Assembly: GCA_024641475.1 (NCBI GenBank)
Contig: JAHECZ010000001.1
Coordinates: 1 to 64,000 of the forward strand
Direction of reading: 5' to 3'
Source of the DNA: Gammaproteobacteria bacterium
GTDB lineage: Bacteria; Pseudomonadota; Gammaproteobacteria; UBA6429; Thiohalophilaceae
DNA length: 64,000 nt
A program made the translations under genes and the position numbers. Of this stretch, positions 23,330 to 30,436 are shown piece by piece. Every line of letters starts with the position of its first letter. The first letter of the stretch is position 1. A model generated the notes under the pieces. It made no database searches, was not told the DNA's origin, and saw only the letters and a list, made by a program, of their open reading frames with translations.

Positions 23330-23785
23330 TCAGACCATATCATCCACCATCCGCCCGTTTTGTTGCCCGGCATGCTCAAGATAAGCGCGATTGGCTCGCT
23401 CACCGGTATAGGATGCCAGTGAATATCGCGGGCTTAGGCGTCGACTTTGTGTAGCCTCTTTACGGCGTTCCTGAGTTTCGTCATTTTTTACTTCGGCTGT
23501 TCTTACTTCGGCGGCATATACCCCCGTCTTTTGTTGTTGCTGTATCAGTTCTTCGGCCTGTCGCGGTGAAATCGGCGTAGTGGTTTTGGCCAGCACATCG
23601 ACATCAGAGCGCTGCTGTTCTTTAGGTGTTGGTCGTGCTGCAGGACTAACGGTTTTACGATCGACGATAGATCGCGTGGATTGGGGTACTTCTGGTTCGG
23701 ATTGACTACGATCACGCCACGCAGATTCCACCGACGCATTGATCGGACGCGAACTGGCTGCTGCGGTGACTGAGGTGAGTTGCAT
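23330..23785 (-). CDS. Hypothetical protein, likely disordered/charged
   Basis: 151-aa ORF, Gln/Arg/Ser-rich, no recognised domain. Confidence 0.45.
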   Translation of the reverse strand: MQLTSVTAAASSRPINASVESAWRDRSQSEPEVPQSTRSIVDRKTVSPAARPTPKEQQRSDVDVLAKTTTPISPRQAEELIQQQQKTGVYAAEVRTAEVKNDETQERRKEATQSRRLSPRYSLASYTGERANRAYLEHAGQQNGRMVDDMV

Positions 23786-23984
23786 AACATTAATAAATAT
23801 AGTGGTTTATTCTGTATCGGCAAGTGCTTGTTTATTCTACATATCAGCATTTCATAATTGGGATATTGATCACCATTTCTGTTTCTACATTAATTTAATG
23901 CTTTTACTCATTGATTAATATAGGTTATTTGATTTAGTTGTGTATCTGAACTAAGGTTTGTCAGAGCAATTGTCGAGGATAACT

Positions 23985-24482
23985 ATGCTACAAGCTATTC
24001 AACGCCGAAACCGGGGTGGTTTTACCCTCATAGTAATTCTTATTGTGCTAATGAGTGCTTGTAGCAGCAATCCGCCGGCTACGTCTTATTCATCGCCATC
24101 GGCTGCCGCCGCAGCGCCAAAGACACCAGTCATCGAAATCGCAACTTCATTGCTGGGCACGCCCTATCACTACGGCGGAATAACGCCAGCAACGGGCTTT
24201 GACTGTAGCGGTTTTGTTTATTACAGCCATCAGCAAGTCGGAGTTACCTTACCCCGAACCAGCGTGGGCCAATACCAGCATACCCAGCCAATTGGCCGTA
24301 AATCTCTCCAACCAGGGGATTTGGTTTTTTTTCATTCAAAACGAGGGCGAATCAATCATGTGGGTATCTACCTGGGTTCTGGTCGATTCATCCACTCGCC
24401 GGGTAAAGGCAAATTTATCTCCGTAACCAGCCTTGACCATCCCTATTGGCAACCCCGGTTTGCCCGTGGTGGCAGGCTGTAG
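23985..24482 (+). CDS. NlpC/P60-family lipoprotein peptidase
   Basis: Lipobox LMSAC; FDCSGFVYYSHQQVGVTLPRTS, NHVGIYLGSGRFIHSPGKG. Confidence 0.9.
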   Translation: MLQAIQRRNRGGFTLIVILIVLMSACSSNPPATSYSSPSAAAAAPKTPVIEIATSLLGTPYHYGGITPATGFDCSGFVYYSHQQVGVTLPRTSVGQYQHTQPIGRKSLQPGDLVFFHSKRGRINHVGIYLGSGRFIHSPGKGKFISVTSLDHPYWQPRFARGGRL

Positions 24483-24617: not shown

Positions 24618-25073
24618 GTGGGACAAAAATCGTTGAAAATAAATAAAACCCTCCAAGAAGTTGTGATGTGGGTACATCCCGAGGGATTAGTACATGGTGC
24701 CCTCTATGTTTCCGTCGATAATGAAGCGCAGCCTGTCGAAGACCCGCACTCCGTGGTCAATAACGATTGGCCATTTCTGGTGTTACGCCGTCGTGAGCCG
24801 AATGAAATCCGTTTTTATAATCGCAGTTCCATTATTCGAATTGAATATGATCAAGCTCGACCGAATAATCCCGCCGCGACGAAAACATCATGTCGCATTT
24901 TAATGATGGATGGTTCGGTCTTTGATGGTGAAATCAACGAAGAACTGCCAGCAGAACGGGCACGTCTTTATGACTATCTGAATCAGGCCAATAACCGCTT
25001 TCTGCGATTGTATTTAGAGGATGACCGAGTTTGCCTGCTGAATAAATCCTACATCATACAGGTAACTCCTTAA
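24618..25073 (+). CDS. Conserved hypothetical, first gene of kinase/PilTU/FHA operon (GTG start)
   Basis: RBS GAAAGGGAG upstream of GTG at 24618; continuous 151-aa frame. Confidence 0.7.
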   Translation: MGQKSLKINKTLQEVVMWVHPEGLVHGALYVSVDNEAQPVEDPHSVVNNDWPFLVLRRREPNEIRFYNRSSIIRIEYDQARPNNPAATKTSCRILMMDGSVFDGEINEELPAERARLYDYLNQANNRFLRLYLEDDRVCLLNKSYIIQVTP

Positions 25074-25118
25074 CCCGGTTCTGGCTACCAGGCGCAGTCA
25101 GAGGTCAACAGAACACGA

Positions 25119-27512
25119 ATGAGTTTATTAAACGGAATAAAAGCAAATAAGGCGATAGCAACCCTGCTGGATTCCGGCGATCCACGCGATCCCGATGTCG
25201 TGGCAGCGATTGCACGCATCAAGGAAATCGGCCGCCCGGCGGTGGCGCGCCTGATCGATGCCCTGCTGGATTCCCCCAATAATGCGCTCGTTGAAAACAC
25301 CCTCATCACGTTGCTGGATAACAAGTCACTGCCTGATTACGCGGACGCCTTAACCGATCCAGATCGCAATTTGGTCGCCAGTGTCGCCCGCATTCTTATT
25401 CGCGGTGCGGGTTACGATCCGAATCTCCTCATGCGGGAACTCGATGACCCTGACATGCCCAAAAAGGTGCTGTTACAAATTCTGGTTTCGAAAAAAGACC
25501 GGTTGAATCCTCGCAAGCTCATTGCGCTACTGGATGATAGCAACCCGAATAAACGCACGTTGGGATTTAACGTTATTGCAGCGGTGGCCACCGAAGAATA
25601 TGTGCCATTTCTTTTGCCTTTCGCCAACAGCGAAGATTTTACTACCCGCCTCAACACGATACGTTTACTGGCACGATTTAATCTGGAACCGGTCCGTAAT
25701 GTCATGTTGAACGCCTTGTCGGATGGGAATAAACACATCCGGCTCGCTGCACTTGAGGGCATTAGCGCCAATAAATTCAGTATCTCCGCACAACATGTCT
25801 GTCCCCTGTTAAAAGACGCTGACATGAATGTGCAAGCCAAAGCGATCGATGCGTTATCCCGACTGAAAGATCCGGATACTGTGGGATACCTGATCGACAT
25901 TCTCAACGATAACTCGGAATATATTCGCCGTGCCGCCGTCGAAGTGCTCAACGAAATTGCCGATCAACGTGCGATTAAAAATTTATTGACCGCGATGCGC
26001 GATACCGACTGGTGGGTACGCGTGCGCGCTGCCGATGCACTCGGGTCTATTGGTGGCCCGCGCGTGGTTGAGGCCATCATTGGCCTGCTGCACGATAAAG
26101 ATGAATTCCTGCGGCGTACTGCCGTGGAGATTTTAAATTCTGTTAAAGATGAACGTGCCTACTTCTTTCTGGTGGAAGCCCTCAATGACTCCGATTGGTG
26201 GGTACGCGAACGTGCGATTGATGCATTGGGACAGTATGGTGATAAACGTGCCATCCCGGAATTATATAAGGCACTGGAAGCACACCCGGATTCCGCGTCA
26301 TTAATCGTACAAGCCATAGTGAAACTGGGCGGTGTTGAAATCATTAATGAATTAATGGAAAAAGCCAATGCGGCGACAGGAAATCTTCGTAAAGAGTTAC
26401 TGATTGCCATCAGTGAGTTTGCCAAAACTCAAAAGCTTGACGAAAGCACCAGTCTCGAGAATGCCAATACCCGCCTGATGTCAGCCACATTAACCGGTAA
26501 CAATACTGCACGAGCCCATACCGAACGTCCCAATAATATCGGCAGTGCCACACGCGACACGCCTGCAGCGGCTAATCGACCACCACAAAAGCAGGAAACC
26601 AGCGCCGGCATTCTGGATCTTTCCGAACAGGAAGAAAAACCCGATCACATGGCACAGATTTTTGATGCCTCCAAGTTTGCGCCTGGCACCATCATTGCGG
26701 ATCGCTATCGCATGATTAAACACATCGGTAAAGGTGCATTTGGTATCGTTGTGCTGGTCAACGACATCATGGTCAATGAAGACATTGTGCTGAAATTCCT
26801 GAATGCCTCGATGTCATCTGACGAGAATATTATTAAACGATTTGTGCATGAATTGCGCTACGCACGTAAGGTCACCCACGAGAACATCATTCGCATCTAC
26901 GATTTCATTACCTTCGGTAACAGTTATGCGATTTCGATGGAATATTTTTCCAGTCACTCGCTCGCGTATGAAATGAAATTGCACAAGCAAATGCGCCTGG
27001 AACGCGTACTGAAAATTTATATCGATATCCTCAAAGGGGTTGGTTTTGCGCATGGTCTGGACATTGTGCATCGCGATCTGAAACCAGCCAATATTCTGAT
27101 TGGCGAAAACGATCAGGTGAAGATTGTCGACTTCGGTTTGGCCGCCGCCGCCAGCTCTGCCGATTCGCGCATTACGCGTACTGGCATTTTGGTAGGTACG
27201 CCAACGTATATGGCACCCGAACAAGTACGTGCACGCGCCATCGATGCACGCACCGATATCTATAGTCTGGGTGTGCTGCTTTACGAAATTTTTGTCGGCA
27301 AGGCACCTTATAAAGGTGAAGATCATCTGGCAACCTTGTTTCAGCACGTGGAAGGCAAGGCTACTCCTCCGCATGAAGCCAAACCTGAAATATCACCTGA
27401 ACTCAGCGGCATTATCATGAAAGCCATGGCCGTGAATCCGCAGGATCGTTACCAGACCGCTGACGAGTTCCGCCTCGATCTGCAATCGCTGCTGGAACGG
27501 AGCAAAAGCTGA
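25119..27512 (+). CDS. HEAT-repeat protein fused to C-terminal Ser/Thr protein kinase
   Basis: N-terminal repeated HEAT/PBS helices (RDTDWWVRVRAADALGSIGG, NDSDWWVRERAIDALGQYGD); kinase GKGAFGIV, HRDLKPANIL, VDFGLA, GTPTYMAPEQ. Confidence 0.92.
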   Translation: MSLLNGIKANKAIATLLDSGDPRDPDVVAAIARIKEIGRPAVARLIDALLDSPNNALVENTLITLLDNKSLPDYADALTDPDRNLVASVARILIRGAGYDPNLLMRELDDPDMPKKVLLQILVSKKDRLNPRKLIALLDDSNPNKRTLGFNVIAAVATEEYVPFLLPFANSEDFTTRLNTIRLLARFNLEPVRNVMLNALSDGNKHIRLAALEGISANKFSISAQHVCPLLKDADMNVQAKAIDALSRLKDPDTVGYLIDILNDNSEYIRRAAVEVLNEIADQRAIKNLLTAMRDTDWWVRVRAADALGSIGGPRVVEAIIGLLHDKDEFLRRTAVEILNSVKDERAYFFLVEALNDSDWWVRERAIDALGQYGDKRAIPELYKALEAHPDSASLIVQAIVKLGGVEIINELMEKANAATGNLRKELLIAISEFAKTQKLDESTSLENANTRLMSATLTGNNTARAHTERPNNIGSATRDTPAAANRPPQKQETSAGILDLSEQEEKPDHMAQIFDASKFAPGTIIADRYRMIKHIGKGAFGIVVLVNDIMVNEDIVLKFLNASMSSDENIIKRFVHELRYARKVTHENIIRIYDFITFGNSYAISMEYFSSHSLAYEMKLHKQMRLERVLKIYIDILKGVGFAHGLDIVHRDLKPANILIGENDQVKIVDFGLAAAASSADSRITRTGILVGTPTYMAPEQVRARAIDARTDIYSLGVLLYEIFVGKAPYKGEDHLATLFQHVEGKATPPHEAKPEISPELSGIIMKAMAVNPQDRYQTADEFRLDLQSLLERSKS

Positions 27513-28609
27513 TGTCCGAACGCATTAATGCATTCCTGAAATTGGGACGTCAACAAGGTGCATCCGACATTCATTTTGCTGTTGGCAGTCCGCCACTAGT
27601 GCGCATCTATGGCGAACTTACCCCGATTAAATATCGTAATCTGACCGATCGGGAAATCGACGAATTATTGCGCGAAATTCTTACTCCCGATCAAATCGAA
27701 AAATTCGAACAAGGTAATGATTTGGATTTTTCATTTCAGAATGCCGAAGTCGGCCGCTTTCGTGTCAATATGTTTCGCAAAGTATCCGGCCTGGGTGCTA
27801 CCTTCCGGGCTATTGCACCGCGCATCCCCGGTTTCAAGGAATTGGGCCTGCCCGACATCGTCGAAAAGTTTTTACATGCCACACAAGGCTTGATTCTCGT
27901 GACCGGCGCCACCGGTACCGGTAAATCCACGACCCTCGCCTGTATGATCGACTGGTTAAATGCCAACAGGCGCTTCAACATCATCACCTTGGAAGATCCG
28001 ATTGAATATGTGCACAAGAGCAACCAGTCACTGGTAATCCAGCGGGCTGTTGGCGATCATGTCGACAGTTTTGCAACCGGTTTGCGCGCAGCCTTGCGTC
28101 AGGATCCCGATATTATTCTGGTTGGTGAGTTGCGCGATACCGAAACCATTTCGATGGCCATGACCGCAGCGGAAACCGGACACCTGGTCCTGGGCACCCT
28201 GCACACTTCCAGCGCCGTAAAAACCCTGGATCGTATGATCGATGCCATGCCGATGGAACAAAAAAATCTGACCCGCAGTTTTCTGGCGCAACATCTGAAT
28301 GCGGTGATCAGTCAGAAATTGGTCCGCACGATTGACGGTCGTTTCCGCAAAGCCGTATTGGAAATCATGATCAACAACAATGCCATCGGCAACCTGATCA
28401 TGACCAATAAAATATTTCAAATCCCCTCGGTGGTTCACACCAGTCGCGATCAAGGCATGCAATTGATGGATACGGCCTTGCTGGAAGCCGTGCAACGTAA
28501 AGAAATCGATCCGGATGATGCGTATATGCAGGCCACCGATAAGCGGCTATTCCAACGCTTTGTCACGAATCCTGAGCTGCTGCCTCAGGTTAACCTGTCG
28601 GTATCGTAA
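27512..28609 (+). CDS. PilT/PilU-family type IV pilus retraction ATPase (copy 1)
   Basis: GATGTGKSTTLACM Walker A, DPDIILVGELRDTETISMAMTAAETGHLVLGTLHT. Confidence 0.93.
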   Translation: MSERINAFLKLGRQQGASDIHFAVGSPPLVRIYGELTPIKYRNLTDREIDELLREILTPDQIEKFEQGNDLDFSFQNAEVGRFRVNMFRKVSGLGATFRAIAPRIPGFKELGLPDIVEKFLHATQGLILVTGATGTGKSTTLACMIDWLNANRRFNIITLEDPIEYVHKSNQSLVIQRAVGDHVDSFATGLRAALRQDPDIILVGELRDTETISMAMTAAETGHLVLGTLHTSSAVKTLDRMIDAMPMEQKNLTRSFLAQHLNAVISQKLVRTIDGRFRKAVLEIMINNNAIGNLIMTNKIFQIPSVVHTSRDQGMQLMDTALLEAVQRKEIDPDDAYMQATDKRLFQRFVTNPELLPQVNLSVS

Positions 28610-28612
28610 GTC

Positions 28613-29743
28613 ATGTCAACCCAACGCATCGATACCTTTCTGGATCTGGTGATTAAACAGGGTGGCTCGGATTTACATCTGGTGGCAGGTAACCCGCCAC
28701 GAATTCGTCTGCATGGTATTGCCTATCCGGTAAAATACCGCGAATTATCCGCCGATGAAGTCTATGACCTGATTAAAGATCTCATCCCGGCCAAAAATCA
28801 TGACGAATTACGTGTCAAAGGCAACACCGATTTTGCTTACGCCTATAACGAAGCCATGCGTTTTCGTGTTAATGCCTTTCAACATTTAGGTGGCATGGGC
28901 GCGGTATTTCGTGCCATTCCGAATCGCATACCTGCTTTAAACGAACTGAGTCTGCCTCCGGCAATTAAAAATCTCACGCGGCAACGTCGTGGCTTGATCC
29001 TGGTTACTGGCCCGACGGGTTCAGGTAAATCCACCACCCTGGCAGCGATGATCGATTACATCAACAATGAGCGCAAAGGCCATATCGTCACGATTGAAGA
29101 TCCGGTTGAATATGTCCATACACAAAAGAATTGCCTGTTCAGCCAGCGCGAAGTCGGTACCCATGTCCCCACATTTTCACGCGCACTGCTCTCAGCCTTA
29201 CGCGAAGATCCAGATGTAGTACTGGTGGGTGAAATGCGCGACGCCGAAACCATTCATCTTGCGATCACCGCAGCCGAAATTGGTATATTGGTGTTTGCCA
29301 CCTTGCACACCAACGGTGCTGCGGCATCGATCGATCGTATTGTAAATGCCTTCCCGGCCGGTGAAGAACCCTATGTACGTACCATGCTGTCTACATCATT
29401 AGTCGGCATAGTTTCCCAGGAACTGGTCAGACGTACCGACGGTAAAGGGCGTTTGCCGGCCGTTGAAATCATGATCAACAATCCCGCAATCTCCAACCTG
29501 ATACGCGAGAACAAGGTTGATCAAATTGAAAATGTCATTCAAAGCGGTGGCATGCAAGGTATGCAGCGTATGGATACCGCATTGCGTCGATTGCTGGATG
29601 CGAATTTAATCACCATCGATGAAGCGTATGCAACAGCCCGAAATAAATCCGAATTCGAAAAACAATACGAATCCTATATGAGTGAGCAGGCAGCGCAAAG
29701 AGTCAGCCCGCCATCGACGGATCCCGCAAATATCACTTCATGA
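28613..29743 (+). CDS. PilT/PilU-family ATPase (copy 2)
   Basis: GPTGSGKSTTLAAM, DPDVVLVGEMRDAETIHLAITAAEIGILVFATLHT. Confidence 0.93.
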   Translation: MSTQRIDTFLDLVIKQGGSDLHLVAGNPPRIRLHGIAYPVKYRELSADEVYDLIKDLIPAKNHDELRVKGNTDFAYAYNEAMRFRVNAFQHLGGMGAVFRAIPNRIPALNELSLPPAIKNLTRQRRGLILVTGPTGSGKSTTLAAMIDYINNERKGHIVTIEDPVEYVHTQKNCLFSQREVGTHVPTFSRALLSALREDPDVVLVGEMRDAETIHLAITAAEIGILVFATLHTNGAAASIDRIVNAFPAGEEPYVRTMLSTSLVGIVSQELVRRTDGKGRLPAVEIMINNPAISNLIRENKVDQIENVIQSGGMQGMQRMDTALRRLLDANLITIDEAYATARNKSEFEKQYESYMSEQAAQRVSPPSTDPANITS

Positions 29744-29767
29744 ACTTAGCAAAAACACAGGTGCACT

Positions 29768-30436
29768 ATGGCTAAACTAATAATGACTCTTGATGGCGCA
29801 ATCATACGAGAGTACCCCATCACCAAAGAAAGCTTGAGCATTGGCCGCAAACACGGCAATGACATTCAGCTCAACGACTTGACTGTCAGTGGTCGACACT
29901 CCATGTTTACCATTGTGGGTGAAAATACCTTTGTCGATGATTTGGGCAGCACCAATGGCACCTTGCTCAATGGCGGACGTGTCGCCAAGTCACCGGTAAA
30001 ACATGGCGACATTATCCAGGTAGGCAACTATCAGTTTACCTATTACGACAATGATACCGCTGAATATGAACCCACCATGTTCATCCGTGCAGAAATCGAA
30101 GATACCCAGATCATGCAAGTGAATCCGCCCAAGACTTCGGATGCCCGCGGCGAACCCCTCGCCGCCGTACGCATCATGAATGGCCCGCTGGCGAAAAAAG
30201 TACTGGAACTACGCAAACCGTTCAATACTTTGGGATTCAACGGCATCAAAATGGCCATGATTGCGCGCACTGCAACCGGTTATACCATCACCATGATCCA
30301 GAATAATAAATTACGCCGTTCCAATGACACACCCATGGTCAATGGCAAAGCCGTTGGTTCGGAAGCGATTCCACTAAAAGATCATGACATGCTCGAACTG
30401 GTTGGTACGCAGATGGAGTTTTTCTATTTCACTTGA
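29768..30436 (+). CDS. FHA-domain protein
   Basis: SIGRKHGNDIQLNDLTVSGRHSMF...DLGSTNGTLLNG. Confidence 0.93.
   Translation: MAKLIMTLDGAIIREYPITKESLSIGRKHGNDIQLNDLTVSGRHSMFTIVGENTFVDDLGSTNGTLLNGGRVAKSPVKHGDIIQVGNYQFTYYDNDTAEYEPTMFIRAEIEDTQIMQVNPPKTSDARGEPLAAVRIMNGPLAKKVLELRKPFNTLGFNGIKMAMIARTATGYTITMIQNNKLRRSNDTPMVNGKAVGSEAIPLKDHDMLELVGTQMEFFYFT

Follow-up and report, generated by a model that had tools for sequence, protein, structure and literature searches.

A conserved operon of a HEAT-repeat Ser/Thr kinase, two PilT-type ATPases and an FHA protein in uncultured Gammaproteobacteria: a possible phosphorylation-switched accessory pilus motor

A 64,000-nucleotide stretch of a gammaproteobacterial genome (the whole of the DNA that was analysed, hereafter the window) carries at 24618-30436 of its + strand an operon that brings two retraction-type ATPases together with a Ser/Thr kinase and a phosphothreonine reader, a combination proposed in an earlier sequence-only reading and now found to be conserved over nine sampled families. 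The parts of this operon, their order and conservation, the motifs that its ATPases have lost and kept, and its coexistence with a canonical pilT-pilU set are read directly from the genomes. It is judged likely that the module controls type IV pilus retraction in a broad sense, and there is about an even chance that it serves as an additional motor for type IV pilus retraction, switched by a Ser/Thr phosphorylation circuit of its own. Known control of these pili runs through two-component systems, chemosensory systems and c-di-GMP, and no account of a retraction-ATPase operon with a built-in Ser/Thr kinase and FHA reader was found in the open papers searched. The features of the operon are as follows.

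24618..25073, + strand: leading protein, 151 aa, GTG start after GGGAG
25119..27512, + strand: HEAT-kinase, 797 aa, Pfam HEAT_2 (1.1e-77) and Pkinase (1.3e-52)
26706..27458, + strand: kinase domain of the HEAT-kinase, residues 530-780, PF00069 boundaries
27512..28609, + strand: PilT-A, 365 aa, Pfam T2SSE, TIGR01420 426 bits
28382..28411, + strand: degenerate AIRNLIRE region of PilT-A (AIGNLIMTNK), motif table n=57
28613..29743, + strand: PilT-B, 376 aa, Pfam T2SSE, TIGR01420 447 bits
29279..29287, + strand: His-box change of PilT-B, where T-G-H of PilT becomes I-G-I, motif table n=58
29768..30436, + strand: FHA protein, 222 aa, Pfam FHA (9.7e-19)
30065..30106, + strand: FHA linker motif YEPTMFIRAEIEDT, residues 100-113, candidate phospho-switch site, near-invariant in 74 sequences

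The five ORFs lie head to tail at exactly the positions that had been proposed, all on the + strand and overlapping or nearly touching, and the spacing between the HEAT-kinase and PilT-A genes has a median of -1 nt across 84 loci. In comparisons with the nearest relatives, strong purifying selection is evident (dN 0.07-0.37, dS saturated). Scans for promoters and terminators gave hits that were no commoner than in shuffled sequence, and no pilin or other pilus gene adjoins the operon. In the fetched neighbourhoods, the five genes occur in identical order wherever the contig reaches far enough, and a scan of GTDB genome contigs, keyed on two conserved peptide patterns so that members with diverged motifs would escape it, recovered 57 loci, 56 of them with a substantial FHA match, and in all 57 the gene order is unbroken as far as the contig extends. 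These loci all belong to uncultured Gammaproteobacteria, labelled as Chromatiales, Ectothiorhodospiraceae or unclassified. The sequence-only reading was to fall if no relative kept the gene order; the order is kept in 56 named contigs. Because it persists although the proteins of relatives are only ~38-70% identical, and is joined to tight coupling and strong purifying selection, the arrangement is not due to chance.

The same picture emerged from a profile of the FHA protein: of 369 genomes in the class, 17 had strong matches (E <1e-80), distributed over nine families in which mean protein identities are 45-69%, and the neighbourhoods of these matches again contained the module. Roughly one genome in four of the class has a weaker FHA match; these were rejected as further modules, those examined being kinase-FHA loci that lack pilT. 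Some lineages carry a tandem pair of FHA genes, and four loci (L130, L132, L153 and L100) have no leading gene ahead of the kinase gene, so that the core of the module consists of the kinase, the two ATPases and the FHA protein. These core proteins diverge in parallel, with correlations of 0.46 to 0.81. In a tree of 113 proteins, families group in the module ATPases much as they do in canonical PilT, which is consistent with old vertical inheritance accompanied by many losses, and transfer of the module between families may also have taken place.

The HEAT-kinase combines HEAT repeats and a C-terminal Hanks-type Ser/Thr kinase in one protein, and everything by which such kinases are recognised is present (G-loop, beta3 Lys, HRDxKxxN, DFG and APE), with G-x-G, K559, HRDLKPxN, DFG and APE invariant or nearly so among 55 relatives. 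Hydropathy gave no transmembrane segment, so that the proposed architecture of a kinase with intact catalytic motifs, a HEAT array and no membrane anchor was borne out by Pfam, the alignment and hydropathy together. HEAT residues 230-375 are ~80% conserved in the same 55 relatives, level with the kinase domain, and this segment therefore probably docks some partner; the earlier suggestion that the HEAT array serves as a scaffold for the ATPases was not supported as written.

Both ATPases belong to the PilT family with intact Walker motifs, as had been noted, since both score well above the TIGR01420 (pilT_fam) cut-off of 319 bits and the motif table agrees. They depart from canonical PilT in opposite ways. 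In PilT-A, Walker A and B, the Asp box and the His box are intact (n=57), and the Arg-Glu of AIRNLIRE is lost, with non-consensus residues at both positions (L/M/V and N/T/S) in 57 relatives. PilT-B keeps this Arg-Glu (n=58), and among its 58 relatives the first His-box histidine has become Ile in 97%, the His-box Thr is kept in just 12% and the second His-box histidine is kept in all. In PilB structures, the corresponding Thr lies between the two His-box histidines at the subunit contact, and the second histidine coordinates the gamma-phosphate (PMC5424180). Neither protein thus unites AIRNLIRE with a complete His box in the manner of canonical PilT, PilT-A being without the first and PilT-B without the second. 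In the tree, PilT-A and PilT-B each form their own clade (support 100 and 99), the two clades are sisters (94), and together they join canonical PilT (98), away from PilU. The assignment of the second ATPase (28613-29743) to PilU was therefore wrong, the tree and the retained AIRNLIRE Arg-Glu both marking it as PilT-type; duplication of a canonical pilT-pilU pair was likewise rejected as the origin of the two genes, since both fall on the PilT side of the tree. A role in coupling PilT to PilU has been put forward for AIRNLIRE, and PilU works solely through PilT (PMC6762196), so that retraction motors built from two ATPases do exist. The opposite motif losses suggest that PilT-A and PilT-B form a motor likely to require both proteins.

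The search that had been advised for a separate canonical pair was successful. The window's genome encodes six PilT-family proteins: two in the module, two that form a canonical pilT-pilU pair encoded on a different contig, and two that are PilU-like; the latter are ATPases without a pilT partner on contigs C84 and C98 of the window's genome, G000 (L054:3254-4444 and L055:3755-4852), and extra PilU paralogues of similar kind were seen in several relatives. Canonical pilT-pilU is also present in 14 of 14 module genomes checked, and PilQ in 16 of 16, the copy in the window's genome being divided between two contigs. In three genomes of the same family that are without the module (G002, G013 and G034), the canonical pair makes up the whole PilT-family complement. 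Judged by gene content, the module ATPases are an extra motor set beside canonical pilT-pilU.

The FHA protein begins with an FHA domain whose best sequence and fold matches are GarA and OdhI, and whose phosphothreonine pocket (R27, S41, H44 and N63) is present in 74 of 74 sequences. Fold and pocket Arg, Ser, His and Asn together identify an FHA reader, and the Pfam match upholds the original description of the protein as a phosphothreonine reader. AlphaFold2 predicted a disordered linker at residues 101-127 (pLDDT under 50), followed by a second, C-terminal beta-rich domain that, from its sequence pattern, looks like a degenerate FHA domain. The linker carries the pattern E.TMF..AE...T in 72 of 74 sequences, with T103 and T113 in all 74, and with this invariant motif in a disordered segment beside an intact reader domain it looks like a phospho-switch. 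Its similarity to the GarA 17-mer, as quoted in PMC8546545, is not above chance, with 14% of shuffles scoring equally, and a GarA-type linker motif was accordingly dropped as a sequence claim and kept as analogy. In addition, the paralogous FHA protein beside a CHASE2 kinase also has an E-x-T linker, so that E-x-T may be a trait of this FHA family in general. Given the chance-level similarity and this paralogue, the GarA analogy is functional and tentative.

The leading protein is accessory, being missing in a few relatives. It had been called an unknown 151-aa protein at the head of the operon; its size and position hold, whereas "unknown" gives way to DUF6812-like, since 46 of 47 relatives match PF20660 (DUF6812) at E up to 10, the matches being mostly weak (best E 4.7e-7) and the window copy reaching 11.3 bits (E 0.36) against a Pfam cut-off of 27.1 bits. 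A search with the protein itself found matches in 23 of 58 relatives, and a profile search across the phylum matched one of 299 genomes, namely the window's own. DUF6812 elsewhere in Gammaproteobacteria was discarded as a clue to function, as it occurred in 1 of 185 in an unrelated context. AlphaFold2 predicted two five-stranded beta units (mean pLDDT 85), and no transmembrane segment was found. The best single-domain structural match of one half is Hfq (probability 0.99, Foldseek E 0.34), and hhalign comparison of the two profiles gave a probability under 1%, so that Hfq/Sm homology was rejected and structural resemblance is all that remains. In Synechocystis, the pilus ATPase PilB1 is a binding partner of Hfq (PMC4390875); the likeness to that system lies in the small predicted beta units, and homology is unsupported. 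An in-frame stop lies within the leading gene of one relative (L042:5995-6441, G025).

Around the core, regulatory genes recur. A divergent gene for an FHA-GAF-HD-GYP protein, with conserved HD and GYP motifs, is found in 24 loci, and a PP2C phosphatase gene lies divergently upstream in 19; 12 loci have both and 31 have one or both. Both genes are missing from the window locus, and FHA-GAF-HD-GYP is absent from the whole of its genome. Where they occur together, kinase, FHA protein, PP2C and FHA-GAF-HD-GYP make up a write-read-erase set with a probable link to c-di-GMP, as far as neighbourhood can tell. Directly upstream of the operon in the window is an NlpC/P60 peptidase gene (23958-24482), which is nearby in 23 loci and absent in more distant families, and farther upstream on the - strand (23330-23785) is a 151-aa protein without a family match that is recognisable in the nearest relative alone (40% identity). 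Seven loci have a gene for an AAA ATPase-FHA fusion downstream of the module, at a distance of a few kb (e.g. L115:16004-17251 and L041:16783-18000). Several small ORFs that recur in the neighbourhood were set aside as artefacts, being antisense to conserved genes. Elsewhere in the window's genome, contig C94 (L102:7754-12208) carries a CHASE2 Ser/Thr kinase, a PP2C and two FHA genes in a row, adjoining ruvABC and tol-pal genes, and the FHA protein of this locus is the nearest paralogue of the module FHA protein.

On the reading set out here, PilT-A and PilT-B would form an obligate pair, as a mixed ring or as stacked rings, and would act on the ordinary pilus machine alongside canonical PilT-PilU. 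The soluble HEAT-kinase would sense or localise via its HEAT array and would phosphorylate Thr103, and perhaps Thr113, of the FHA linker. Once phosphorylated, the linker may occupy the FHA pocket of its own protein, in the manner of GarA/OdhI, or be bound by a second copy of the FHA protein; either event would release the FHA protein from the PilT-A/B motor or recruit it there, and so alter retraction. In many relatives, the neighbouring PP2C and FHA-GAF-HD-GYP proteins may return the switch to its starting state and connect it with c-di-GMP. In this specific form, with a mutually dependent PilT pair gated by Ser/Thr phosphorylation through HEAT-kinase and FHA adaptor, and coupled in relatives to c-di-GMP and PP2C, the scheme is put forward tentatively, at somewhat less than an even chance.

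The same parts could be wired otherwise. It is possible, if unlikely, that the kinase phosphorylates PilT-A and/or PilT-B directly and that the FHA protein, by attaching to the modified ATPase, acts as a brake or an adaptor, its linker being no more than a docking or feedback site for the kinase: a pThr pocket intact in 74 of 74 sequences would suit the reading of a partner's phosphothreonine, the tight coupling of the HEAT-kinase and PilT-A genes suggests a fixed stoichiometry, and the conserved HEAT segment 230-375 could dock the ATPases. However, a module-specific phosphosite was not identified in PilT-A or PilT-B, though without a systematic search, and the invariance of the FHA linker would then call for a separate explanation.

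Slightly less likely still is that PilT-A and PilT-B serve a non-pilus machine, for secretion or DNA handling, under the same kinase and FHA control. The presence of PilQ and canonical pilT-pilU in every module genome checked speaks against this, as does the position of both ATPases on the PilT side of the tree, although the loss of AIRNLIRE in PilT-A, the altered His box of PilT-B and the lack of adjacent pilus genes would all fit, and PilT paralogues in non-pilus contexts exist, such as the recA-linked pilT1 of Geobacter (PMC5065972). Loss of AIRNLIRE carries less weight here in that PilU itself is without this motif and yet retracts pili through PilT (PMC6762196). The paralogous CHASE2-kinase/PP2C/FHA locus, in the same genome and without pilT, means that the FHA family is not bound to pili in general, and kinase and FHA protein could accordingly be a general signalling pair whose order with the ATPases reflects shared expression and no direct control. 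Such an arrangement is improbable, the least favoured of those considered, since the core order, with its -1 nt overlap, is unbroken over nine families despite the sequence divergence among them, and since the kinase and both ATPases diverge together (r 0.66-0.81).

The preferred reading, a kinase-switched accessory motor, has partial precedents. With canonical pilT-pilU the module shares a tandem arrangement of two PilT-family ATPases whose Walker motifs are intact, and a genomic background that includes a PilQ-type pilus machine; it differs in that both ATPases are PilT-type in two clades of their own, have kinase and FHA partners, coexist with the canonical pair and show opposite losses of AIRNLIRE and the first His-box histidine. 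In Actinobacteria, the soluble kinase PknG has a TPR scaffold and phosphorylates the FHA protein OdhI (PMC8546545). As in PknG, the kinase of the module is soluble and is joined to a repeat scaffold (HEAT in place of TPR), and as in the GarA/OdhI-PknG/PknB systems there is a GarA-like FHA domain with a disordered Thr segment; in the module, however, the Thr motif follows the FHA domain, as opposed to the N-terminal ETTS-type motif of GarA/OdhI, and the FHA protein has an extra C-terminal domain and is linked to pilus ATPases instead of metabolic enzymes. The CHASE2 kinase-PP2C-FHA locus of Gammaproteobacteria shares a two-domain FHA protein, an E-x-T linker and an adjoining kinase and phosphatase, but there the kinase is of the membrane CHASE2 type in place of HEAT, pilT is absent, and the FHA proteins are ~37% identical to those of the module. 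In Xanthomonas, PilT and PilU are acted on by a complex of HD-GYP, GGDEF and PilZ proteins (PMC3749722). This RpfG system and the module both tie HD-GYP to retraction ATPases, here by neighbourhood in 24 relatives, whereas the module has a Ser/Thr kinase and no PilZ or GGDEF gene, and its HD-GYP protein, the gene for which is absent in the window, carries FHA and GAF domains.

All members found belong to uncultured Gammaproteobacteria, and ordinary laboratory strains would therefore not reveal the module. The analysis offers named residues and regions, namely FHA T103/T113, the AIRNLIRE region of PilT-A and the His box of PilT-B, and the two ATPases present a natural experiment on the division of functions within a two-ATPase motor. 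If the reading is true, this would be the first type IV pilus motor module under the control of a Ser/Thr kinase. It bears on the cell's control over the timing of type IV pilus retraction, and the conserved association described here suggests that in these bacteria pulling may be switched on and off by protein phosphorylation.
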